This document shows, in pieces, positions 12,938 through 24,726 of a stretch of 64,000 bases of DNA; the first letter of the stretch is position 1, and every line of letters starts with the position of its first letter. The position numbers and the translations under genes are program-made. Location of the stretch: NCBI GenBank assembly GCA_022826005.1, contig JAJDVT010000102.1:1-64000 (forward strand). The letters are read 5' to 3'. The notes beneath the pieces were generated by a model. The model made no database searches. It was not told where the DNA came from and saw only the letters and a program-made list of their open reading frames with translations. The DNA comes from Gemmatimonadota bacterium (GTDB taxonomy: Bacteria > Gemmatimonadota > Gemmatimonadetes > Longimicrobiales > Gaopeijiaceae).

Positions 12938-12994
12938 ATCGTGTCCGGGAGCCATCGCCCTGCGGGCCGGCACCTACCCCACCGACGGTCTCTC

Positions 12995-14857
12995 ATGACG
13001 CTACGAACCCTCGCCCCCGCCGCGGTCTTCACCGCCTTCGCCTGCCTGGCCGCCCGCACTGCAGCGGAAGCCCAGCAGGGTCAGGAAGTCTTCGAGACGG
13101 CCTGCGCGAGCTGCCATTCGCCCGCCGGCACCGAGCGCGCACCCGGGACCCGGCTCCTCGCGCAGCTCACGCCGCGTGCGATCGTGGCCTCTCTGGAGGA
13201 CGGGGTGATGCGCGCGGAGGGCGCGGACCTGACGCCGGAGCAGCGCATTCAGGTGGCCGAGTACCTGACCCGCCGCCGCTACGAGGCCGGGGGTCTCCCG
13301 GAGTCCGTCTTCTGCGCCGCACCCGCCTGGACGGGGCTGGATCCTGCTGCCGCCTCCTGGATGGGGTTCGCGGGCAACCTGGCGGGCACCGGCTACCAGC
13401 CACCCGAGCGAGCGGGGCTGGACGCTTCCGACGTGCCGAACCTGGAGTTGCGCTGGGCGTTCGCCTTCCCCGGGGGGACGAACATGCGTACCTCGCCCGC
13501 GGTGGCCGGCGACGCGGCGCTCGTGGCCGGTCCCTTCGGCGAGGTGCTGGCCCTGGACCTCGCCACCGGCTGCGTCCGCTGGAGCTTCGAGGCCGACGCG
13601 ATGATCCGTGGCGCCATCGTGATCGGCGAGGGCCCGGAAGGCCGCTCCGCCGCATGGTTCGTGGACTCGCGCACCAACGCCTACGCCGTCGACCTGGAGA
13701 GCGGTTCCGTGATGTGGAAGGTGCGGGTCGGCTGGCACGCGGTGGCGTACGGCACGGGAAGCCCGGCGCTGCACGACGGGCGGCTGTACGTCCCCGTGTC
13801 CTCGCTGGAGGTCTCGATGGCAGGCGATCCGCGCTACGAGTGCTGCACCTCCGCCGGGGCGGTCGCGGCTCTCGATGCCGCCACGGGCGAGGTTCTCTGG
13901 TACCACCGCGTGATCCCGGGCTACTCGGAGGAGACGGGCCGCAACGGGATCGGGACGACGAATTGGGGCCCGTCCGGGGCGGCGGTCTGGTCGAGTCCCA
14001 CCATCGATCCGGCCCGCGGGCTGCTGTATGCCGGGACGGGCGAGAACCTGACCCACCCGGTGACCGGGACCAGCGACGCGATCCTGGCGCTGGAGCTCGC
14101 AACGGGGGAGCTGGCCTGGTCCTTCCAGGCGACTTCCGGCGACGCCTTCAACATGGCGTGCACACAGGCGGCCTTCCGCGAGAACTGCCCCGATCCTCCC
14201 GGACCGGACCTGGATTTCGGGATGGCGCCGATGCTCGTCACCCGGACCGACGGGAAGGAGATCCTGGTCGCGGGGCAGAAGTCCGGGACGGTGTGGGCGC
14301 TGGACCCCGACAATGGCGGAGCGCTCCTCTGGTCCACGTCGGTCGGCAAGGGCAGCGCACTCGGGGGGATTCACTGGGGGATGGCCGCGGACGGCCGCTA
14401 CGCCTACGCGCCTAACGCCGACCGGCAGGCCGTGATCGTGGACGTCAACCCGGAACGCGAGCGCTCGCCGGGTCTCTACGCGCTCGATCTCATGACCGGC
14501 GAGGTCGTGTGGAGCGCATTTCCACCGGAGGACGCCTGTCGCGGCAGGCCACGCTGCTTCCCCTCCAACTCGGCCGCGGCCACCGCCATCGACGGAGTCG
14601 TCTTCGCCGGCGGCCTGGACGGCGTCATCCGCGCCCACTCGACCGCCGACGGCCAGGTGATCTGGGAGTTCGACACGACGCAGCCCGTCGAAACCGTGGG
14701 CGGTGTTCCCGGGCGGGGCGGCGCCATCGACGGACCCGGACCGGTCGTCGCCGGAGGCTTGCTCTTCGTCAACAGCGGCTACGCGACCTTCGGCCAGATG
14801 CCGGGCAACCTGCTGCTGGCCTTCGGGGTCGGCGATCCGGACGGGCCGGGCAACTGA
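12995..14857 (+). CDS. exported cytochrome c - PQQ beta-propeller dehydrogenase (polyvinyl-alcohol-dehydrogenase-like)
   Basis: 620 residues from ATG 12995. A signal peptide is cleaved near AEAQQG. Next comes a small class I cytochrome c domain with haem motif CASCH at about residues 34-38. From about residue 110 there is a PQQ-type eight-bladed propeller with repeated blade signatures (ALDLATGCVRWSFE, AVDLESGSVMWKVRV, ALDAATGEVLWYHRV, ALELATGELAWSF, ALDLMTGEVVWSAF). The cytochrome-first, propeller-second order is that of polyvinyl alcohol dehydrogenase. Expected role: periplasmic oxidation of an alcohol with electrons passed through the attached haem. PQQ ligands were not verified residue by residue, and loss of cofactor binding is possible. 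Confidence 0.85.
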   Translation: MTLRTLAPAAVFTAFACLAARTAAEAQQGQEVFETACASCHSPAGTERAPGTRLLAQLTPRAIVASLEDGVMRAEGADLTPEQRIQVAEYLTRRRYEAGGLPESVFCAAPAWTGLDPAAASWMGFAGNLAGTGYQPPERAGLDASDVPNLELRWAFAFPGGTNMRTSPAVAGDAALVAGPFGEVLALDLATGCVRWSFEADAMIRGAIVIGEGPEGRSAAWFVDSRTNAYAVDLESGSVMWKVRVGWHAVAYGTGSPALHDGRLYVPVSSLEVSMAGDPRYECCTSAGAVAALDAATGEVLWYHRVIPGYSEETGRNGIGTTNWGPSGAAVWSSPTIDPARGLLYAGTGENLTHPVTGTSDAILALELATGELAWSFQATSGDAFNMACTQAAFRENCPDPPGPDLDFGMAPMLVTRTDGKEILVAGQKSGTVWALDPDNGGALLWSTSVGKGSALGGIHWGMAADGRYAYAPNADRQAVIVDVNPERERSPGLYALDLMTGEVVWSAFPPEDACRGRPRCFPSNSAAATAIDGVVFAGGLDGVIRAHSTADGQVIWEFDTTQPVETVGGVPGRGGAIDGPGPVVAGGLLFVNSGYATFGQMPGNLLLAFGVGDPDGPGN

Positions 14858-14967: not shown

Positions 14968-15816
14968 ATGAACAGAATACCCGTTCGCGCGCTCATTCTC
15001 GTGGCGCTCGCCGCCGCTTTCCCGGCGCTCGCGTACGCACAGGCGTCCGGCATCCCCCGCACACCCTCGGGCAGGCCCGACATGAACGGCCTGTGGCAGG
15101 CGCTCGGCAACGCCCATTGGGACATCGAGCCGCACGCCGCTCGTCCCGCCCTCGCCATGCAGCCCGGGCCCGTGATCCCGGTGCCGGCGAACGAGGTGCT
15201 CGCGCTGGGTGCCGTCGGGTCCGTCCCATCCGGCTATGGCGTCGTCGACGGGGGCGTGATTCCCTACCTGCCCGAGGCGCTGGCGCTGCGGGACGAGAAC
15301 CGTGAGCTGTGGCTGGAGCGCGACCCGGAGATCAAGTGCTTCCTGCCGGGGGTGCCGAGGGCGACCTACATGCCCTTCCCCTTCCAGATCTTCCAGAGCG
15401 ACACGAAGGTCTTCATGGCGTACGAGTACGCGGGCGCGATGCGAGAGGTCTACCTGGAGGATCCCGGTCCGCCGCAGGTCGACTCCTGGATGGGACAGTC
15501 GGTCGGCCGCTGGGAGGGCGACACCTTTGTTGTCGTGGTGAACGGCTTCAACGGGCAGGCGTGGCTGGACCGGGCGGGGAATCACCACAGCGCCGGCCTG
15601 ACGGTCACCGAGCGCTACACGATGATCGGTCCGGACCACATCATGTACGAGGCGGAGCTGGACGACCCGGAGACGTATGCGCGTCCCTGGAAGGTCCGCA
15701 TGCCGCTGTACCGCAACATCGATCCGAATGCCCGGCTTGGGCAGTTTCAGTGCGTGGAATTCGTCGAGGAGCTGATGTATGGACACCTGCGCAAGAATCC
15801 GATTCGCCGCCGGTAG
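14968..15816 (+). CDS. exported protein of a family found with DUF6152, function unknown
   Basis: 282 residues from ATG 14968, with a clear signal peptide (LALAAAFPALAYAQ-like, cleaved near residue 25). The mature part starts with GIPRTPSGRPDMNGLW, a motif shared by exported Acidobacteriota and Gemmatimonadota proteins of unknown function. It continues with EIKCFLPGVPRATYMPFPFQI, WMGQSVGRWEGDTFVVVVNGFN and RPWKVRMPLYR. The block before RWEGDTFVV resembles that of the next gene (SWGRWEGDTLVVETTN), so the two are distant paralogues in tandem. The C-terminus overlaps the next start by 38 bases. I know of no assigned activity; association with PQQ enzymes suggests a periplasmic role. Confidence 0.75.
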   Translation: MNRIPVRALILVALAAAFPALAYAQASGIPRTPSGRPDMNGLWQALGNAHWDIEPHAARPALAMQPGPVIPVPANEVLALGAVGSVPSGYGVVDGGVIPYLPEALALRDENRELWLERDPEIKCFLPGVPRATYMPFPFQIFQSDTKVFMAYEYAGAMREVYLEDPGPPQVDSWMGQSVGRWEGDTFVVVVNGFNGQAWLDRAGNHHSAGLTVTERYTMIGPDHIMYEAELDDPETYARPWKVRMPLYRNIDPNARLGQFQCVEFVEELMYGHLRKNPIRRR

Positions 15817-16903
15817 GAGGGGCGCCGTCCCGCTGACGCTGCCGGGCGCCGCCGCACTGGGCCTGGTTCCCGTCACTGCGGGTCTGGCCCCCGTCCTCGC
15901 GACGCCCGTCATCGCCCAGGAGCGCGAGGCCGCGGCGGTCGAATGGGTCGTTCCGCGCACGCCCTACGGACACCCCGACCTGCAGGGGAACTGGTCCAAC
16001 GCGACGGTCACCCCGATTCAGCGGCCGGAGGGACAGGGTCCGACGCACACCTGGGAAGCGGTGGCCCGGATCGAGGGATTCGTGCGCACCGCCCGTCAGA
16101 GGGGGGCCCGGGACAGCGATCCCAACCGGAGCGCGCCGCCGGTCGGAGGCATCTTCACCGGTGATCCGCGCAGCGACGCGGCGTCCGGGGGCACCGGCGG
16201 CTACAACTCCTTCTACATCGACTCGGGAGACCTGGTGGCGGTCTTCAACGGCGAGCCCCGGACCTCGCTGATCGTCTATCCGGAGAACGGGCGGACGCCG
16301 TCGCTCACCGACGAGGGTCGGGAGCGGCGCGCCGAGCGGAGGCGATTCGCCAGCCAGTTCGGCCAGTACGACAACCCGGAGAACCGGCCGCTGGCCGAGC
16401 GCTGCATCATGTCGTTCGGCTCCAACGGGGGGCCGCCGATGCTTCCCAACTACTTCTACAACAACAACTACACGATCGTGCAGACGCCGGACCATGTGAT
16501 GATCATGACCGAGATGGTGCACGACGTGCGGATCATCCGGCTGGGCGAGCGCAAACCGCTGCCTGCGCACATCCGCCCGTGGATGGGCGACTCCTGGGGC
16601 CGCTGGGAGGGCGACACGCTGGTCGTCGAGACCACGAACCTTCACCCGAATCAGACCCTGCAGGGCGTGGCGCCGTCGGAGGAGTTCAAGGTCATCGAGC
16701 GCTTCACCCGCGCCGACGAGCACACGATCAACTACGAGTTCACCGTCGAGGATCCGATCATGTGGAGCGGGCCCTGGAGGGGCGAGGTGCCCTTCAGGCG
16801 GCTCGACGGACTGGTCTACGAATACGCCTGCCACGAGGGCAACTACGCGCTCGAGAACGTGCTGCGCGGTGCCCGGGCGCAAGAGCGTCAGGAAGGAAGG
16901 TAG
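15779..16903 (+). CDS. exported protein, paralogue of the upstream gene, function unknown
   Basis: 374 residues. GAGGAG stands six bases before ATG 15779, which supports a start inside the preceding gene (38-base overlap). The N-terminus is a long Arg-containing export signal ending near TPVIAQEREA. The mature protein has the same plan as its neighbour: PRTPYGHPDLQGNW near the start, ERCIMSFGSNGGPPMLPNYFYNNN in the middle, then RPWMGDSWGRWEGDTLVVET and CHEGNYALENVLRG at the end. These are hallmarks of a widespread uncharacterised exported family. It is followed six bases later by a DUF6152 gene. Confidence 0.75.
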   Translation: MDTCARIRFAAGRRGAVPLTLPGAAALGLVPVTAGLAPVLATPVIAQEREAAAVEWVVPRTPYGHPDLQGNWSNATVTPIQRPEGQGPTHTWEAVARIEGFVRTARQRGARDSDPNRSAPPVGGIFTGDPRSDAASGGTGGYNSFYIDSGDLVAVFNGEPRTSLIVYPENGRTPSLTDEGRERRAERRRFASQFGQYDNPENRPLAERCIMSFGSNGGPPMLPNYFYNNNYTIVQTPDHVMIMTEMVHDVRIIRLGERKPLPAHIRPWMGDSWGRWEGDTLVVETTNLHPNQTLQGVAPSEEFKVIERFTRADEHTINYEFTVEDPIMWSGPWRGEVPFRRLDGLVYEYACHEGNYALENVLRGARAQERQEGR

Positions 16904-16909
16904 GGAACG

Positions 16910-17359
16910 ATGCGCAACAAATGGATTCTTCTGGCCGGCGCGGCGGCGCTGCTGGCCGCGGTCGCGGTTCCGGTGGTGGCCCACCACGCCTTTGGGGCGG
17001 AGTTCGATCGCAACGCGCCGATCAAGCTCCAGGGCAAGATCGTCAAGCTCGAGTGGGTGAATCCGCACACCTGGATCCACATCGAGATCGAGAAGGAAGA
17101 CGGGACCCAGGAAATATGGGCCGTGGAGGGTGGGACACCCAACGTATTGTTGCGTAGAGGGTTACGCCGAGACTGCCTGAAGCCCGGCGCGGAGATCATC
17201 GTGGACGGATACCAGGCCAAGGACCACTCCCTGAAGCGCGCCAACGGGCGCGACGTGACCTTCACCGACGGCAGCAAGATCTTCCTGGGCTCGTCCGGGA
17301 CGGGGGCGCCCTACGAGGAGGAACTCCTGAAGGCGAGGCGGCAGCAGGGGCGCTGCTGA
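16910..17359 (+). CDS. DUF6152 family exported protein
   Basis: 149 residues with a signal peptide ending at VVAHHAFG. The HHAFGAEFD start of the mature protein is the hallmark of DUF6152. The rest reads as a small beta-barrel-like domain (GKIVKLEWVNPHTWIHIEIE, EIWAVEGGTPNVLLRRGL, IIVDGYQAKD). An AGGAAGG ribosome site precedes the ATG. Function is unknown; the His pair at the mature N-terminus could bind metal, which is inference. It ends the plus-strand operon, facing the DUF6644 operon only two bases away. Confidence 0.85.
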   Translation: MRNKWILLAGAAALLAAVAVPVVAHHAFGAEFDRNAPIKLQGKIVKLEWVNPHTWIHIEIEKEDGTQEIWAVEGGTPNVLLRRGLRRDCLKPGAEIIVDGYQAKDHSLKRANGRDVTFTDGSKIFLGSSGTGAPYEEELLKARRQQGRC

Positions 17360-17360
17360 G

Positions 17361-17828
17361 TCAGGAAAACCCGATCCAGCGACCGGCCGCCGCCACGGTA
17401 AACCACAGCGCCAGCGACACGGCCCCGACGATGCGGCCGACCACGCCGGGATCCTCGGTCGCGCGCCGCGCCACGCGCTCACGCACCGCGAAGGTGAAGG
17501 TCAGCGCCACGGGCAGCGTGCACATCTTCACCCAGAACGCGGTGTTGTAGTACGCCTTGATGGCTTCCGACAGGAAGAGCGGCACTCCGGTGAGCACCAT
17601 CACGATCACGCTCGCGACCAGCCAGGGCCTCGCGTAGCGGGCCAGCCGGGCGGGCGGCTGGCCGGTGAGGCCGACGCCGAGCAGCCTGAGGTCGACGACG
17701 AGCAACGCGCCCCCGAGCATGCACAGGCCGAGGAGGTGGACGGCCTCCAGGATCGGGAAGGCCCAGATGGAGTCGGCGATCGCCCTGCCGATCGGTGTCG
17801 ACTCGCACCAGCGGAAGAAGTCGATCAT
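17361..17828 (-). CDS. DUF6644-like integral membrane protein (second copy)
   Basis: 155 residues with four predicted membrane helices. N-terminal signature FFRWCESTPIGRAIADSIWAFPILEAVHLLGL, then VVDLRLLGVGL and a last helix VGAVSLALWFTVAAAGRWIGF. Its paralogue upstream has the same layout (FLVWLGETPWSIALLESLWVWPLVESTHVLTL, MMDLRLLGIAF). Conserved His in helix 1 (EAVH, ESTH) might ligate haem, but this is inference. ATG 17828 overlaps the upstream stop as ATGA, so the pair is translationally coupled and may form a heterodimer. Confidence 0.75.
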   Translation of the reverse strand: MIDFFRWCESTPIGRAIADSIWAFPILEAVHLLGLCMLGGALLVVDLRLLGVGLTGQPPARLARYARPWLVASVIVMVLTGVPLFLSEAIKAYYNTAFWVKMCTLPVALTFTFAVRERVARRATEDPGVVGRIVGAVSLALWFTVAAAGRWIGFS

Positions 17829-18382
17829 CGGAGCGGCACGGGACATCCCGCCATCCAGTTCACCCATGCGGGCTGGGGCTGGATGTCGCAGTCGAACCAG
17901 TTGTAGGCGATGAGGCGGCCCGTCACCACCACCACGGTCCACACGGCCAGCGACACCGCGCCGGCGATACGGGCAGCCCGTGGCGGGGATGCATCCCGGT
18001 CCCACTCGGCGGCGTGGCGGTGCACCCCGTTGTGGAAGATCGCGACGTTCGCGCCCGCCAGGAGCAGCACCAGCACCTTGACGCGGAAGAAGAGGTTGTG
18101 GTAGTAGCGCAGCGGCTGCGAGTAGAAGAGGAGGAGCCCGGTCACGGTCATGATGATGAAGCCGATGTGGGTCCATGGGAGTAAGCGCCCCGTGAATGCC
18201 GTGATCGGCACTTTCCGGAAGGCGATGCCGAGCAGCCTCAGGTCCATCATCACGGTAGTGCCGACAAAGAGGCCGAGGGTGAGGACATGGGTCGACTCCA
18301 CCAGCGGCCACACCCAGAGCGACTCGAGAAGGGCGATGCTCCACGGGGTCTCGCCGAGCCAGACCAGGAATCGTTCGATCAA
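17825..18382 (-). CDS. DUF6644-like integral membrane protein (first copy)
   Basis: 185 residues beginning at TTG 18382, which overlaps the stop of the upstream cytochrome-like gene as TTGA. Four hydrophobic helices, with conserved His in ESTHVLTLG and in LLPWTHIGFIIM and several aromatic positions. It is longer than its paralogue at the C-terminus (RLIAYNWFDCDIQPQPAW...). DUF6644 proteins have no assigned role. The arrangement with an anchored cytochrome c-like protein upstream suggests a small membrane redox unit. Confidence 0.75.
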   Translation of the reverse strand: MIERFLVWLGETPWSIALLESLWVWPLVESTHVLTLGLFVGTTVMMDLRLLGIAFRKVPITAFTGRLLPWTHIGFIIMTVTGLLLFYSQPLRYYHNLFFRVKVLVLLLAGANVAIFHNGVHRHAAEWDRDASPPRAARIAGAVSLAVWTVVVVTGRLIAYNWFDCDIQPQPAWVNWMAGCPVPLR

Positions 18383-18867
18383 GGGGTGTCCGGGATGCTG
18401 TCCGGGATGGTGTCGTAGTTGGGGCGCAGCGTCTGGGTCGCGTAGACGGCGTGGCAGCCGGTGCAGACCAGGTAGACGTCGCCCCCCGCCTCGAAGACCC
18501 TGCCGGGATCACGCGCCTGCGCGGCCTCGACCGCGCGCCTCCCCACGTCGATCATCGAGCGGGACATCGCGACCCAGTGATCACCCTGCACGCGCTCCCG
18601 CAGCAACAGCAGGTTGCCCGATTCGGCGAGCACCCAGGCCGCGTTCTCCACGGCCTCCCACTCCTCCGCCGTGCGCGGCTCGATCTCGTAGGTGCCCTCC
18701 ATGTCCCAGATGAAGCCCACCGCGTCCCAGTAGACCTCGGCCGCCGGCTCGAGCACCGACAGCATCAGCTGCTTCGAGTCGGCCGCGGCGACGAAGGGAT
18801 GGCGGTCGGGGGGGTCGGTGCATGCGCCCGCGAGCATGAGGGCACAGGTCAGGGGCAGTGTTCTCAT
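18379..18867 (-). CDS. cytochrome c-like lipoprotein with one CXXCH motif
   Basis: 162 residues from ATG 18867. The signal peptide ends in a lipobox (LMLAGAC), so the protein is probably membrane-anchored. A largely helical middle follows (VLEPAAEVYWDAVGFIWDMEG, TAEEWEAVENAAWVLAESGNLLLL). The single haem motif CTGCH sits near the C-terminus in GGDVYLVCTGCHAVYATQTLRPN, as in four-helix cytochromes c' and similar proteins. It is the first gene of an operon with two DUF6644 proteins, and diverges from the PQQ dehydrogenase fusion at 19116. A role in transferring electrons from the neighbouring PQQ enzymes is plausible. Confidence 0.8.
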   Translation of the reverse strand: MRTLPLTCALMLAGACTDPPDRHPFVAAADSKQLMLSVLEPAAEVYWDAVGFIWDMEGTYEIEPRTAEEWEAVENAAWVLAESGNLLLLRERVQGDHWVAMSRSMIDVGRRAVEAAQARDPGRVFEAGGDVYLVCTGCHAVYATQTLRPNYDTIPDSIPDTP

Positions 18868-19115
18868 GGCCGTGAAAGATACCCCCGCCGAGCGGCGCCG
18901 GCACCCTGACCGCGCGGGAATCGCGCCTGGCAACCCACCGACAACCCCCCCGCGCCGTTCGAGCGGCGATGCATCCGCGCATCCGGACCGCTTTCCGGGA
19001 TGAGTTCGTGCGTGCCGGAGCAGCCGCCAACCGCACGCGGTGCGTGGCGGACACCCGCATCGGCGCGCATCTTGTGTACAGCTCACGTATCCCCACCCAA
19101 ACGCAAGACCGCCGC

Positions 19116-21974
19116 ATGAAGTTGAACTCCAGGTTCCTCCGCAACGGCCTCGGCCTCGTCCTGCTGGCTCTCACCACCACCGCCTCGTCCCCCGCCGCGG
19201 GAGCACAGCAGTCGGACTGGCCGATGCACGGGCGCGACGCCGCCGAAACCCGCTACAGCCCGCTGGACGGGATCAACACCGCCAACGTCGACCAGCTCGC
19301 GGTCGCATGGAGCTGGGAAATCCCCAAGATCGGGGCACGGCTCGAGACGACGCCCATCGTCGTGGACGGGGTCCTGTACGGCACGGCGGCGTTCAGCTTC
19401 GTCTTCGCCCTCAACGCCGCCACCGGCGAGGAGATCTGGCGCTGGGATCCGGCCATCCCCCACGAGCGGCTGGGCGGGCCGCGATCCTGCTGTGGCGATG
19501 TCAACCGGGGTGTAGCGGTCCACGGGGACCACGTGTACGTGGGCCTGCTGGACGGCCGCCTCGTCGCCCTCGACCGCGCCGACGGTTCGCTCTTGTGGAC
19601 GGTTCAGACGACACCGCCCGGCGCCGATTACTCTATCACCGGGGCACCACGGGTGATCGGCAACGCCGTCGTGATCGGCAACGGGGGGGCCGAGTACGGT
19701 GTCCGCGGCTACGTGACCGCCTACGACACCGAAACCGGGGCCGAGCTGTGGCGCACCCACACCGTCCCGGGCAACCCCGCCGACGGCTTCGAGAGCGAGG
19801 CCATGCGTGCGGCGGCAGAGACCTGGACGGGCGAGTGGTGGGTCGCGGGCGGAGGAGGCACCGTCTGGGACGCGATCGTGGTCGACCCGGCGGCGGATCT
19901 GGTATACATCGGCACCGGCAACGGCTCGCCCTGGAACCGCGACAACCGCAGCCCGGGCGGCGGCGACAACCTCTACCTCTCCGCCATCGTCGCGCTCGAC
20001 CCGGAAGACGGGTCCATCCAGTGGCACTACCAGACGACGCCGGGGGACGACTGGGACTACACGGCGACCCAGCCGCTCATGCTGCTCGACCTCGAGATCG
20101 GCGGCAGGGAGCGGCAGGTCATCGTACAGGCGCCCAAGAACGGCTTCTTCTACGTCGTCGACCGGCTCACCGGCGAATTCATCTCGGCCGAGCCCTTCGC
20201 CGACGACCTCACCTGGGCGACCGCGGTCGATCCGGCTACCGGCCGTCCCATGGAGACGCCCGAGGCCCGTTACGGAATGACCGGCAAGGGGGTCTACCTG
20301 GCTCCTGGCCCGCGTGGGGCGCACAACTGGCACCCGATGTCGTGGAGCCCGCGCACCGGGCTGGTCTACCTGCCCGCCACAAACAACAACTACTACTTCG
20401 AGAAGGAAGAGGATTTCGACTACCGGGCGGGAACCTGGAACACGGGGACCACCCGGGGCGCCGACAGCCAGCGGCCGGAGCGTCCACCCCTGAAGGGGCC
20501 GAACAATTTCCTCCTGGCCTGGGATCCGGCCCGGAACAGCGAGCGGTGGCGGGTCGAGGCCGATGGCAGGCACGGCGGAACCATGGCCACCGGCGGGGAC
20601 CTGGTCTTCTGGGGCACGGGTGAGCGGCTGGCCGCGCACGACGCCCGCACCGGCGAGGAACTCTGGTCGGCGGAGGTCGGGGACGGCACCGCGTCGCCGG
20701 TCACCTACCAAGTGGACGGCACGCAGTACGTGTCGATCGCGGCCGGGCTGGTCACCGGGGGCGGGGCGCCACGGGTCTGGACCTTCGCGCTGGAGGCGGA
20801 CGCGCAGGACACCCGGGACCTCACCACCGCCGCCCCCGACGAGGTGGGCCTCTCCAGCGAGGCCCTCGCGCGCATCGGCCCCACCATGCAGCAGTTCATC
20901 GACAACGACCGCACCGCCGGCATCCTCACGCTGGTCGCCCGGCGCGGCGAGATCGTGCACTGGGACGCCCACGGGTGGCGCGTCAAGGATGAGGACCCCC
21001 TCGATCCCAACGACATCTTCCGCATCTACTCGATGACCAAGCCGGTCACCAGCGTCGCCGCGATGATCCTCATCGAGGAGGGCCGCATGTCGCTCGACGA
21101 CCCGCTGTCGAGCGTCATCCCCTCCTTCGCCGACATCCAGGTGTACGACGGCGGCAACCTCCGCCCGCCGGCGCGCCCGATCCTGATCCGGGACCTGCTC
21201 ACCCACACCTCCGGGCTCACCTACGGCGTCTTCGGCAACACGCCGGTCGACTCCATGTACGGCAGCAGGCTCAACGCTCTGGACAGACGCGGGAACGCGG
21301 ATCTCGAGGAGCGTGCCGAGGTCCTGGCGTCCCTTCCCCTGATCGACGACCCCGGTGCCCGCTGGAACTACAGCCTTTCCACGGATGTCCTCGGGCGCGT
21401 CGTCGAGGTGGTTTCCGGGCAGTCGCTGGACGCATTCTTCCGCGAGCGCATCTTCGACCCGCTCGGGATGCACGACACCGGCTTTCATGTGGCCGCCGGC
21501 AAGACCGACCGCTTCACGCAGTTGTATTTCCGCGGCCGCGACGGGCTCGTCGCACCCCCCGGCGGCGACCGCTTCACCCGTCCCCCGAGCTGGTATTCCG
21601 GAGGGGGCGGGCTCACATCCACCGCGGCCGACTACCTCCGCTTCTGCGAGATGCTCCTCGGCGGGGGCGAAAGGGACGGGGTCCGCATCCTCCGGCCGGG
21701 AACCGTCGAACTCATGACACGCAATCACCTGCCGGAGGAAATGATTCCGGTCCTGGGGCTGCCCGGGCAGGGCTTCGGACTCGGGTTCGCCGTGTCGGTC
21801 GGCGACAATCCCGGCACCTATTGGTGGTCGGGCGTCGCAAGCACCTATTTCTGGATCGACCCGGAGGAGGAGATCATCGCGTTCGCATGGACCCAGCTCC
21901 AGCCGTACGGGATGGCGCCGGTCGACCGCCTGCTCAGACCCATCGTGTATGAAGCAATCCGCGACGGGAATTGA
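19116..21974 (+). CDS. PQQ-dependent alcohol dehydrogenase fused to a class-C beta-lactamase-like serine hydrolase
   Basis: 952 residues, two enzymes in one chain. After a signal peptide (ending ...SSPAAGAQQS), residues about 30-560 are a quinoprotein dehydrogenase. It has DWPMHGRDAAETRYSPLDGIN, a vicinal Cys pair in RSCCGDVNRGVA near residue 125, TGNGSPWNRD, and blades of the type ALNAATGEEIWRW. From about residue 565 a serine beta-lactamase/esterase domain follows: APDEVGLSSEALARI, the SXXK motif as SMTK (Ser near 639), YSLS near 752 in place of YXN, and PPSWYSGGGGLTSTAADYLRF. The junction (ADAQDTRDL) looks like the mature start of a normally separate exported hydrolase. A typical ADH would instead end or carry a cytochrome c. 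No internal stop or frame change is seen. Confidence 0.88.
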   Translation: MKLNSRFLRNGLGLVLLALTTTASSPAAGAQQSDWPMHGRDAAETRYSPLDGINTANVDQLAVAWSWEIPKIGARLETTPIVVDGVLYGTAAFSFVFALNAATGEEIWRWDPAIPHERLGGPRSCCGDVNRGVAVHGDHVYVGLLDGRLVALDRADGSLLWTVQTTPPGADYSITGAPRVIGNAVVIGNGGAEYGVRGYVTAYDTETGAELWRTHTVPGNPADGFESEAMRAAAETWTGEWWVAGGGGTVWDAIVVDPAADLVYIGTGNGSPWNRDNRSPGGGDNLYLSAIVALDPEDGSIQWHYQTTPGDDWDYTATQPLMLLDLEIGGRERQVIVQAPKNGFFYVVDRLTGEFISAEPFADDLTWATAVDPATGRPMETPEARYGMTGKGVYLAPGPRGAHNWHPMSWSPRTGLVYLPATNNNYYFEKEEDFDYRAGTWNTGTTRGADSQRPERPPLKGPNNFLLAWDPARNSERWRVEADGRHGGTMATGGDLVFWGTGERLAAHDARTGEELWSAEVGDGTASPVTYQVDGTQYVSIAAGLVTGGGAPRVWTFALEADAQDTRDLTTAAPDEVGLSSEALARIGPTMQQFIDNDRTAGILTLVARRGEIVHWDAHGWRVKDEDPLDPNDIFRIYSMTKPVTSVAAMILIEEGRMSLDDPLSSVIPSFADIQVYDGGNLRPPARPILIRDLLTHTSGLTYGVFGNTPVDSMYGSRLNALDRRGNADLEERAEVLASLPLIDDPGARWNYSLSTDVLGRVVEVVSGQSLDAFFRERIFDPLGMHDTGFHVAAGKTDRFTQLYFRGRDGLVAPPGGDRFTRPPSWYSGGGGLTSTAADYLRFCEMLLGGGERDGVRILRPGTVELMTRNHLPEEMIPVLGLPGQGFGLGFAVSVGDNPGTYWWSGVASTYFWIDPEEEIIAFAWTQLQPYGMAPVDRLLRPIVYEAIRDGN

Positions 21975-22053
21975 CACACTGTCGAGTGAAAAGCGACATA
22001 AGTGTGACACAATAACGACAGAATGACGACACACACGATGGAGGACTGACGGA
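21975..22053 (+). promoter_or_regulatory. A+T-richer promoter region of the Ig/metalloprotease lipoprotein gene
   Basis: The 79 bases between the two genes are less G+C-rich than the surroundings. TTGACA overlaps the upstream stop (21971-21976). TGTGACACAATAACGACAG lies further down, and GGAGG sits nine bases before ATG 22054. No good -10 hexamer stands at the ideal distance (GACATA at 18 bases is poor), so the -35 call is tentative. Repeated TGACAC words might be operator half-sites. Confidence 0.3.
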
Positions 22054-24726
22054 ATGCTGACGGAAAGACGCTGCGGCCCGACCGGCCCCCACCCTCTGGC
22101 GACGCTCGCCAACCGCTTGACCTTCCCCGCTCTGGCCGGCGCCCTGCTTTCACTGGCCGGTTGCGGCGGCGACTCGGATCCCACCCCACCCGAGCCTCCC
22201 GCGGTGCCGACGACCGTCACCATCACCCCGGCCTCCGTCACGCTCGCCGCGGTGGGGGACCGGCAGCAGTACCAGGCCCGGGTGCTGGACCAGCGCGGGC
22301 GTGCCATGTCCGGTGTGACCATCACCTGGGCGAGCACCCGGCCGGGTGTGGCGGAGGTCGACCGCGCGACGGGGCTGGCCACGGCCACCGGGCCGGGGAC
22401 GGCGGGCATTCGCGCAACGGCCCGGCGGATCACCTCTGAAGCCACGCTCGAGGTGGTCCAGGTGCCCGCGGCACTGGAGAAGACCCAGGGCGACGGCGAG
22501 CGGGGGTATTTCGGCAGGGCACTGGCCGTGTCTCCCGCCGTGCGCGTGCTGGACGCGAACGGACATCCGGCCCGCGAGAAGAGCGTCATCTTCGAGGTCA
22601 CCTCCGGAGGCGGATCCGTGTTCCCCGAAGTCACCATCACCGACCCGGACGGCATGGCGCGGACCGAATGGACGCTCGGCGAGGACTCCGTGCAGACGCT
22701 CAGCGCTACGGCCTCCGAGCTGACCACCGAATTCACGGTGACCGCCATCGAACCGCCTCTGGAGATCCTCACCGATTCCCTCGCCTGGGGACGGGCCACC
22801 CTCGCCTACCTTACCGAGCTGTCGGCGCGGGGCGGCTCGCGCATGGGGTACGTCTGGAGCCTCCCGGAGAACGCGGCGCTGCCCGCGGGTCTGGAGATCA
22901 CCACGGACGGGCGGATCCAGGGGACGCCCGAGGAAGTCGGCGTAAGCGAGGTGGAGGTGCGGGTCACCGACTCGAACGGCCGGGACACGACCGCCACCTT
23001 CGGGCTGCGTGTTTGCGACGCCCCGCTGGGGCTGCAGGTGGGAGACGTGCGGACGGTGAACCCCGAGGCGCTGGAGCCCTGCGGGTTCCTGCTGATCGCC
23101 GACAGTGCCGGGGCATACTACCGGGTGACCTTCACCGGCCTCGACGCCGAGGGGCGGAGGGACTCGCGCACGAGCCTGTGGCTGGAGCCGCTTCCGGGAC
23201 AGGCGGCGGCGTTCCGTCCCTCTGTTGCCGCGCGCGCACCCCGGCAACCGGCCGCGGTGGATCAGGAATGGGCCGCTGCGTCAGCGCGTTGGTCGGAACT
23301 GCTTCAGATCGAATACGAGAACGACCTGCTGCACCGGGAGATCCGGCGCCAGGAAGAGGAGCTCATGCAGGAGATGCTCGCGCGTGGACCGCTGGAAATC
23401 CTGCCCGACCGGCCCTCCACGCGGGGGCAGGACCAGGCCCGGCAAACCGCCGGGACTCCCGTCACCTTCAAGCTCTACGACCGAACGGGCGGAGGAAGCC
23501 GCTGCACGGTGGACACGACGGTGGTCGCCGACGTGATCGCCGAGAACGACGACTTCATCGTCTACGAGTCCGTGGATGCCACAGGCAACGTGTCGGTGGA
23601 GAACGCGAACACGATGATCGACTTCTACACTGAGCACGGGAAGGAGATCGTCGAGCGCTACTTCGGCGGGGTCAGCGACGTGAACGGCGACGGCAAGATC
23701 GCCCTTCTGGTGGATCCCAGCCTGAGCGGCAGCCGCGCGTTCGTCTGGTCCGGCGACATGACCTTTTCCGCTACGACCTGTCCCGCCTCGAACGAGATGG
23801 AACTCGTCCACATGAGCGCCGGGTCCTTCGATTTCGACAACGGTCGGTACTGGGCACTCTCGGCGCTGGTGCACGAGGTCAAGCACGTCAGCTCCCTTTA
23901 CAAGCGGGCCGTGAATCACCGGCGGCGCGGCTCCAGGAGCGGGGACGAGAGCTTCCACCCGGTCTGGATCGAGGAGGGCACGGCCGAGATCGCCAAGGAG
24001 ATGAGTTCGCGGCTGGCGTGGGAGCGCGCGGGGGGACCGGCGGCAAGCGAGCGGGCCTCCGGCGACGCGATGCGGCTGGCTCTCCGGGAGACCGTGCCCG
24101 AGTTCTACGGGGTGTTCAACCTGATGTCCCGGACGGTGATCGCGTTCTCCCCGGATCCGAACGGCATCGCCTTCGAGCCCGACGACCAGGGCCACATCTA
24201 CGGCAGCGGCTGGCACTTCCACCGCTTCCTGCGCGACTGGGTGGCGGCGGGCGGGGCGGGCGTGGACATGGCCGCGGACGAGGCGTTCGTCACGGCGCTC
24301 AACGACACGCTCACCGTGCCGGGGATCGAGGGCCTCGAGCATGTGATGGGCACGTCGATGGCGGAACTGCTCCACGCCCACGCCATCGCGATGACCGTCG
24401 CGGGGTCCGAGGACCTGCTCACCGACGACGCGACGCCACGCTTCCTGTCCTACGACTTCCCCACCGCAACGGAGATCTTCGTCAACCCAGACCCGCCGGG
24501 GCGCTACCCCTGGCCGAAGACGCTGACGGGGGATGACGACCTGTCATCGATGGCGGCCGCGGTGCTCGGCGGGGGCCAGCGGTTCGACGGGTACGTCTTC
24601 TCGAACGGTATCCGGGTCCACGACTTCGAGGCCATGGCGGCAGGGGCAGCGGCGATCTTCCGCGTGTCGGTGGGACCCGACATCTCGGTGATCGTCGCGC
24701 GGATCGCGGAGCCGCCGGGGTTCTAG
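22054..24726 (+). CDS. surface lipoprotein with Ig-like domains and an HEXXH metalloprotease domain
   Basis: 890 residues. The signal peptide ends in a lipobox (LLSLAGC). Residues about 50-130 form a BIG2-type Ig-like domain (TVTITPASVTLAAVGDRQQY ... ITWASTRPGVAEVD). A second Ig-like module follows, then a putative He_PIG-type module (LPENAALPAGLEITTDGRIQG). From about residue 470 there is a catalytic domain resembling peptidase M30 (hyicolysin-like): DVNGDGKIALLVDP, then LVHEVKHVSS with HEXXH at residues 607-611, then WIEEGTAEIAKEM carrying the downstream Glu expected of a gluzincin. It likely acts at the cell surface as a zinc endopeptidase. GGAGG precedes the ATG by nine bases. Confidence 0.8.
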   Translation: MLTERRCGPTGPHPLATLANRLTFPALAGALLSLAGCGGDSDPTPPEPPAVPTTVTITPASVTLAAVGDRQQYQARVLDQRGRAMSGVTITWASTRPGVAEVDRATGLATATGPGTAGIRATARRITSEATLEVVQVPAALEKTQGDGERGYFGRALAVSPAVRVLDANGHPAREKSVIFEVTSGGGSVFPEVTITDPDGMARTEWTLGEDSVQTLSATASELTTEFTVTAIEPPLEILTDSLAWGRATLAYLTELSARGGSRMGYVWSLPENAALPAGLEITTDGRIQGTPEEVGVSEVEVRVTDSNGRDTTATFGLRVCDAPLGLQVGDVRTVNPEALEPCGFLLIADSAGAYYRVTFTGLDAEGRRDSRTSLWLEPLPGQAAAFRPSVAARAPRQPAAVDQEWAAASARWSELLQIEYENDLLHREIRRQEEELMQEMLARGPLEILPDRPSTRGQDQARQTAGTPVTFKLYDRTGGGSRCTVDTTVVADVIAENDDFIVYESVDATGNVSVENANTMIDFYTEHGKEIVERYFGGVSDVNGDGKIALLVDPSLSGSRAFVWSGDMTFSATTCPASNEMELVHMSAGSFDFDNGRYWALSALVHEVKHVSSLYKRAVNHRRRGSRSGDESFHPVWIEEGTAEIAKEMSSRLAWERAGGPAASERASGDAMRLALRETVPEFYGVFNLMSRTVIAFSPDPNGIAFEPDDQGHIYGSGWHFHRFLRDWVAAGGAGVDMAADEAFVTALNDTLTVPGIEGLEHVMGTSMAELLHAHAIAMTVAGSEDLLTDDATPRFLSYDFPTATEIFVNPDPPGRYPWPKTLTGDDDLSSMAAAVLGGGQRFDGYVFSNGIRVHDFEAMAAGAAAIFRVSVGPDISVIVARIAEPPGF

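Follow-up and report, generated by a model that had tools for sequence, protein, structure and literature searches.

A single gene of the Gemmatimonadota genome analysed here encodes two enzymes in one chain. One open frame, 19116-21974 (+) of the window (the whole 64,000-nucleotide stretch of DNA that was analysed), runs for 952 codons followed by TGA, without internal stops, and specifies in order a signal peptide, a PQQ alcohol dehydrogenase without a haem domain, a short linker and an SxxK esterase. This two-enzyme protein is conserved in about 20 species and was previously undescribed in the papers and genomes searched, although both of its constituent families are known. The fusion is almost certainly real and expressed as one protein. 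The best explanation of it as a whole, to which we assign a probability of roughly 0.4, is that the esterase would cleave an ester or lactone and that the dehydrogenase half would oxidise the alcohol so released. The main features of the gene and of its closest neighbours are as follows.

19116..19205 (+), predicted Sec signal peptide (residues 1-30, MKLNS...AAGA/QQ; identified in the translation by eye)
19209..20795 (+), PQQ-dependent alcohol dehydrogenase propeller (residues 32-560; TIGR03075, Pfam PQQ, 1kv9/1kb0 alignment and Foldseek)
20796..20822 (+), interdomain linker ADAQDTRDL (residues 561-569; 22 fused proteins aligned across the junction)
20823..21971 (+), family VIII-type serine hydrolase (residues 570-952; Pfam Beta-lactamase, EH7 (7pp3)/4ivi alignment)
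21972..21974 (+), stop codon TGA (translation)
18379..18867 (-), divergent lipoprotein, a small c-type cytochrome with a single CxxCH close to the C-terminus (LAGAC lipobox and VCTGCH in the translation)
17361..18382 (-), two DUF6644 membrane-protein genes (Pfam), downstream of the cytochrome gene and in the same direction, conserved neighbours by synteny

A preliminary description of this DNA had proposed a complete quinoprotein and a complete SxxK hydrolase in one frame, and the coordinates, the frame and the join at ADAQDTRDL all agree with what we find. The start was placed at the ATG at 19116 by alignment with relatives including a solo hydrolase, the frame staying open further upstream; both this ATG and the DNA preceding it align with fused relatives and with the solo hydrolase gene of a sister genus. 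Pfam recognises both enzymes, PQQ (PF01011) at 254.9 bits and Beta-lactamase (PF00144) over residues 591-935 at 219.5 bits, and codon-position GC is even along the whole fused gene. Over eight pairs, dN/dS lies at 0.09-0.15 in the dehydrogenase half and at 0.09-0.18 in the hydrolase half, and from these values of about 0.1-0.2 we conclude that purifying selection acts on both halves. An antisense open frame of 1238 codons, 19083-22799 (-), spans the entire fused gene and is most likely a by-product of high third-position GC.

A join of this kind could come from assembly or binning, or from a stop missed between two genes, and the window's genome is indeed an assembly of 143 contigs. That explanation is ruled out by independent genomes of the genus and retains next to no probability: the same join, with a divergent linker, occurs in 20 species-level genomes, two of which (G032 and G033) are single-contig, so that a chance assembly join is excluded. 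In a family search the full-length frame without stops was recovered from 20 of the 23 genomes of the genus (g1), the window's own among them; in the 19 others the two-domain frame is 74-88% identical, and both domains were confirmed after re-extraction. A full fusion without stops (64% identity) is also present in a genome of another genus, G057, at a different, non-syntenic locus. The search for the same architecture in related genomes that the preliminary description had suggested is thereby answered by 20 of 23 genomes and G057, and neither of the two weaknesses it had named, an assembly join or homologues that are always separate genes, has come to light. A fused copy in G010, of genus g2, is probably contamination, since the contig carrying it matches that of G013 at 98.0% identity over 10.9 kb, while at its solo-hydrolase locus G010 is 99.7% identical to G009. 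Neither the 154 genomes searched from the order nor the 395 Gemmatimonadota genomes yielded further fusions, and a plasmid collection gave no full-length match; such a fusion was not found in the open-licence literature either and may still be reported elsewhere.

The first half is a member of the PQQ-dependent dehydrogenases of the methanol/ethanol family, TIGR03075 matching residues 27-545 with 555.3 bits, above its curated cut-off of 480.05. The adjacent-cysteine disulphide pair, the Glu and Asn metal ligands and the catalytic Asp of that family are all present: Cys125-Cys126, Glu193 and Asn269, together with Lys341, are invariant in 39 aligned homologues, and the catalytic Asp311, which aligns with the Asp of 1kv9 and 1kb0, is invariant in 16 fused proteins. 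Lanthanide-type PQQ dehydrogenases (XoxF/PedH-like) have an additional Asp at the second position beyond the catalytic one. Trp313, not Asp, occupies this place in the fusion, and the dehydrogenase half would bind PQQ and Ca2+.

A Foldseek comparison of the predicted model gave 1kv9 as its top match (48% identity). The closest solved relatives are the type II quinohaemoproteins 1kv9 (ADH-IIB) and 1kb0 (QH-ADH), which share the cofactor-site and catalytic residues but end in a cytochrome c domain, whereas the fusion has the hydrolase at that end; the C-terminal CxxCH cytochrome c domain that is the hallmark of the type is absent from it. The nearest solo dehydrogenases (66-75% identical) also lack the haem domain and end no more than about 10 residues from the fusion point, while most relatives at 50-56% identity carry CxxCH at the C-terminal position. 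Loss of the haem domain therefore probably preceded the fusion, and the hydrolase would not be a direct substitute for it.

A search for PqqC, positive in two other genomes (E about 1e-109), gave no match in the 23 g1 genomes, and all PqqE matches were below the cut-off. Given that PqqC was not found, PQQ would have to be scavenged from outside the cell. The window's genome encodes several quinoproteins, though its genus is without a PqqC match. The PqqC result would also suit a dehydrogenase half that is an apo (empty) quinoprotein, serving as a scaffold or binding domain beside a hydrolase that alone is active, and the model for acido-empty-quinoprotein group A, TIGR04528, does match, if below threshold (336.5 bits against a cut-off of 650). 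We regard this as improbable, because the adjacent cysteines, metal ligands and Lys341 are invariant in homologues and Asp311 in fused proteins, because TIGR03075 is above its cut-off, and because the PQQ half is constrained as strongly as the hydrolase. Some bacteria, moreover, make apo-quinoproteins and then take up PQQ.

The second half aligns over its full length with EH7 (7pp3) and with the carboxylesterase 4ivi. Its motifs are Ser639-MT-Lys642, Tyr703, Tyr752-SL, GGGG at 829-832 (GGxG) and Trp904-S-Gly906, with catalytic residues invariant in 16 fused proteins; S639, K642, Y703, Y752 and W904 correspond in the alignment to Ser76, Lys79, Tyr145, Tyr192 and Trp363 of EH7, and no GxSxG occurs in residues 570-952. 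By these motifs the hydrolase half fits a family VIII esterase of subfamily VIII.1, for which the published motif table gives SxxK, Y-x-x and W-x-G without GxSxG (PMC9795927). It has SxxK, YxS, WxG, GGxG, the Tyr145 equivalent and the lack of GxSxG in common with the esterases of that subfamily (EH7/7pp3; similar are 4ivi and 7uda), but those are free enzymes, while here the mature N-terminus is joined to a quinoprotein and the hydrolase's own signal peptide is gone. EH7 hydrolyses 66 esters as well as nitrocefin (PMC9795927), a range so broad that the substrate is not readable from the family. Two other assignments were rejected: a beta-lactamase proper, as YSL and WSG stand where class C has Y-A-N and K-T-G (bla_class_C, 24 bits against 415), and the methyl acetate hydrolase AcmB (NF052559), at 204 bits against an equivalog cut-off of 550.

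At the locus of the fusion, sister genera have stand-alone hydrolases (L117-L136) that are 58-73% identical to the fused half; such hydrolases are found in g2, g36 and g37 and in G059, G027 and G030. They have a signal peptide or lipobox of their own and no dehydrogenase, whereas the fused hydrolase has no signal of its own; behind the signal comes TTAEPEEVGMSSEVLARI or a similar sequence, which aligns with LTTAAPDEVGLSSEALARI of the fused proteins. Solo dehydrogenases of the nearest clade stop near the join, and it is there that the solo hydrolases start their mature part. The merging of two separate exported enzymes with loss of the second signal peptide, put forward in the earlier account, is borne out by this alignment. 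Across the 22 fused proteins the linker differs in length and sequence between species; not being conserved, it gives no indication of a fixed domain interface.

Most solo hydrolases, including those of g36, g2, G030 and G059, adjoin the whole or part of the neighbour set of the fusion, which consists of two secreted proteins without a family, DUF6152, the two DUF6644 genes and the divergent cytochrome. In a midpoint-rooted neighbour-gene tree the g36 loci fall outside the fused group. For this reason the solo hydrolase is likely to have been the ancestral occupant of the locus, in which case the dehydrogenase was the inserted part, having been placed in frame between the signal peptide and the mature hydrolase.

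The g2 solo hydrolase is placed within the fused genes by the hydrolase tree and the neighbour-gene tree alike, and the DNA upstream of one g2 solo hydrolase, including ATGAAG, aligns with fused genes. The simplest reading is a single insertion, with the dehydrogenase half later disappearing from the sister genus g2 and, within g1 itself, from one or two species (the G027/G030 lineage); a possible alternative is that the fusion was gained repeatedly. Among matches above about 300 bits, genomes with the fusion have no separate close copy of the dehydrogenase, most g2 genomes hold both halves as separate genes, and in G027 and G030 a close dehydrogenase is missing altogether. The separate g2 dehydrogenase is the sister of the fused ones in the dehydrogenase tree and not an excised copy. 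A single origin with strictly vertical inheritance was rejected: the hydrolase tree is incompatible with a single clade of fused genes (p-AU 7e-6; 1e-6 without G057), since the solo genes of g2 and G027/G030 nest inside. Such a clade is not rejected by the dehydrogenase tree (p-AU 0.079; 0.26 without G057), nor is a grouping of the G057 hydrolase with the g1+g2 clade (p-AU 0.46); the G057 fusion, at its different locus, may share that origin or may have arisen independently.

Under the reading that we prefer, hydrolysis followed by oxidation, the fused protein would be exported as one chain by its single predicted signal peptide, and its two domains, connected by a flexible linker, would fold independently. 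The hydrolase half, in the periplasm, would cleave an ester or lactone and free an alcohol, which the tethered dehydrogenase half would oxidise; a separate c-type cytochrome, perhaps the divergent neighbour, would take up the electrons. An AlphaFold model of the whole protein resolves the propeller well but neither the hydrolase nor the domain arrangement: most of the hydrolase has a pLDDT below 50, its alignment having drawn on no more than about 16 eligible sequences, and modelling the hydrolase alone was no better. It is reasonably probable that both halves are catalytically active; that they act in sequence on one substrate, hydrolysis before oxidation, is plausible at somewhat less than even odds.

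The fusion may instead secure only joint expression and export of two enzymes with different substrates, the linkage itself being near-neutral. The variable linker, the unlinked halves of g2 and the disappearance of the dehydrogenase half from g2, G027 and G030, whose hydrolase stayed in place, would all fit; these losses and the unconserved linker argue against an obligatory coupling. On the other hand, 20 of the 23 g1 genomes have retained the fusion, dN/dS being about 0.1-0.2 in both halves, and fused genomes have no separate close dehydrogenase. We hold such co-export without coupling to be possible, if somewhat less probable than the coupled reading.

The order of the two reactions could also be the reverse, with the quinoprotein making a lactone or keto-ester from a diol or lactol and the esterase opening the product, thereby pulling the oxidation. 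Polyvinyl alcohol breakdown provides a precedent, its paired enzymes working by oxidation and then hydrolysis, and a protein at 12989-14857 (+), conserved upstream of the fusion locus, has a cytochrome c domain at its N-terminus and a PQQ propeller after it, the domain order of polyvinyl alcohol dehydrogenase. Members of TIGR03075, for their part, mostly turn simple alcohols into aldehydes, and we hold the reverse order to be unlikely, even though beta-lactamase-fold esterases take varied acyl substrates (PMC9795927).

The fusion has partial parallels elsewhere. Polyvinyl alcohol dehydrogenase and oxidised-polyvinyl-alcohol hydrolase likewise combine an extracytoplasmic quinoprotein with a serine hydrolase, but they are separate genes, the hydrolase has another fold and oxidation comes first, whereas here the two are fused. 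The Cu/Zn-SOD-beta-propeller lactonase of D. radiodurans is likewise a natural fusion of a redox enzyme with a hydrolase, although its folds and chemistry (PMC12362111) are unrelated to those of the dehydrogenase-esterase fusion.

The fused, separate and re-separated forms at one locus in close relatives make the effect of physical linkage directly testable. Related Gemmatimonadota genomes are sponge-associated on our reading of their record names, and the fusion hints at extracytoplasmic ester use on borrowed PQQ in these uncultured bacteria. In its fullest form, an ester-to-aldehyde or ester-to-acid enzyme in which the esterase would pass the alcohol to a quinoprotein feeding the respiratory chain, with PQQ from neighbours, this idea is rather doubtful; if true, it would allow a sponge symbiont to respire esters outside its cytoplasm.

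The small cytochrome gene is kept at fused and solo-hydrolase loci alike, as synteny shows, and its product (18379-18867) is a candidate electron acceptor. Together with it, DUF6152 and the two DUF6644 genes (16910-18382) form a conserved cluster; neither DUF6152 nor DUF6644 was named in any open-licence paper searched. The two secreted proteins at 14968-15813 and 15779-16903 (+) are about 33% alike, belong to no Pfam or NCBIfam family and are conserved (57-97%) next to both fused and solo-hydrolase loci. Directly 3' of the fusion in many relatives, and at 22054-24726 (+) in the window, is a gene whose large product has bacterial Ig-like domains and a zinc-peptidase-like HEVKH motif.
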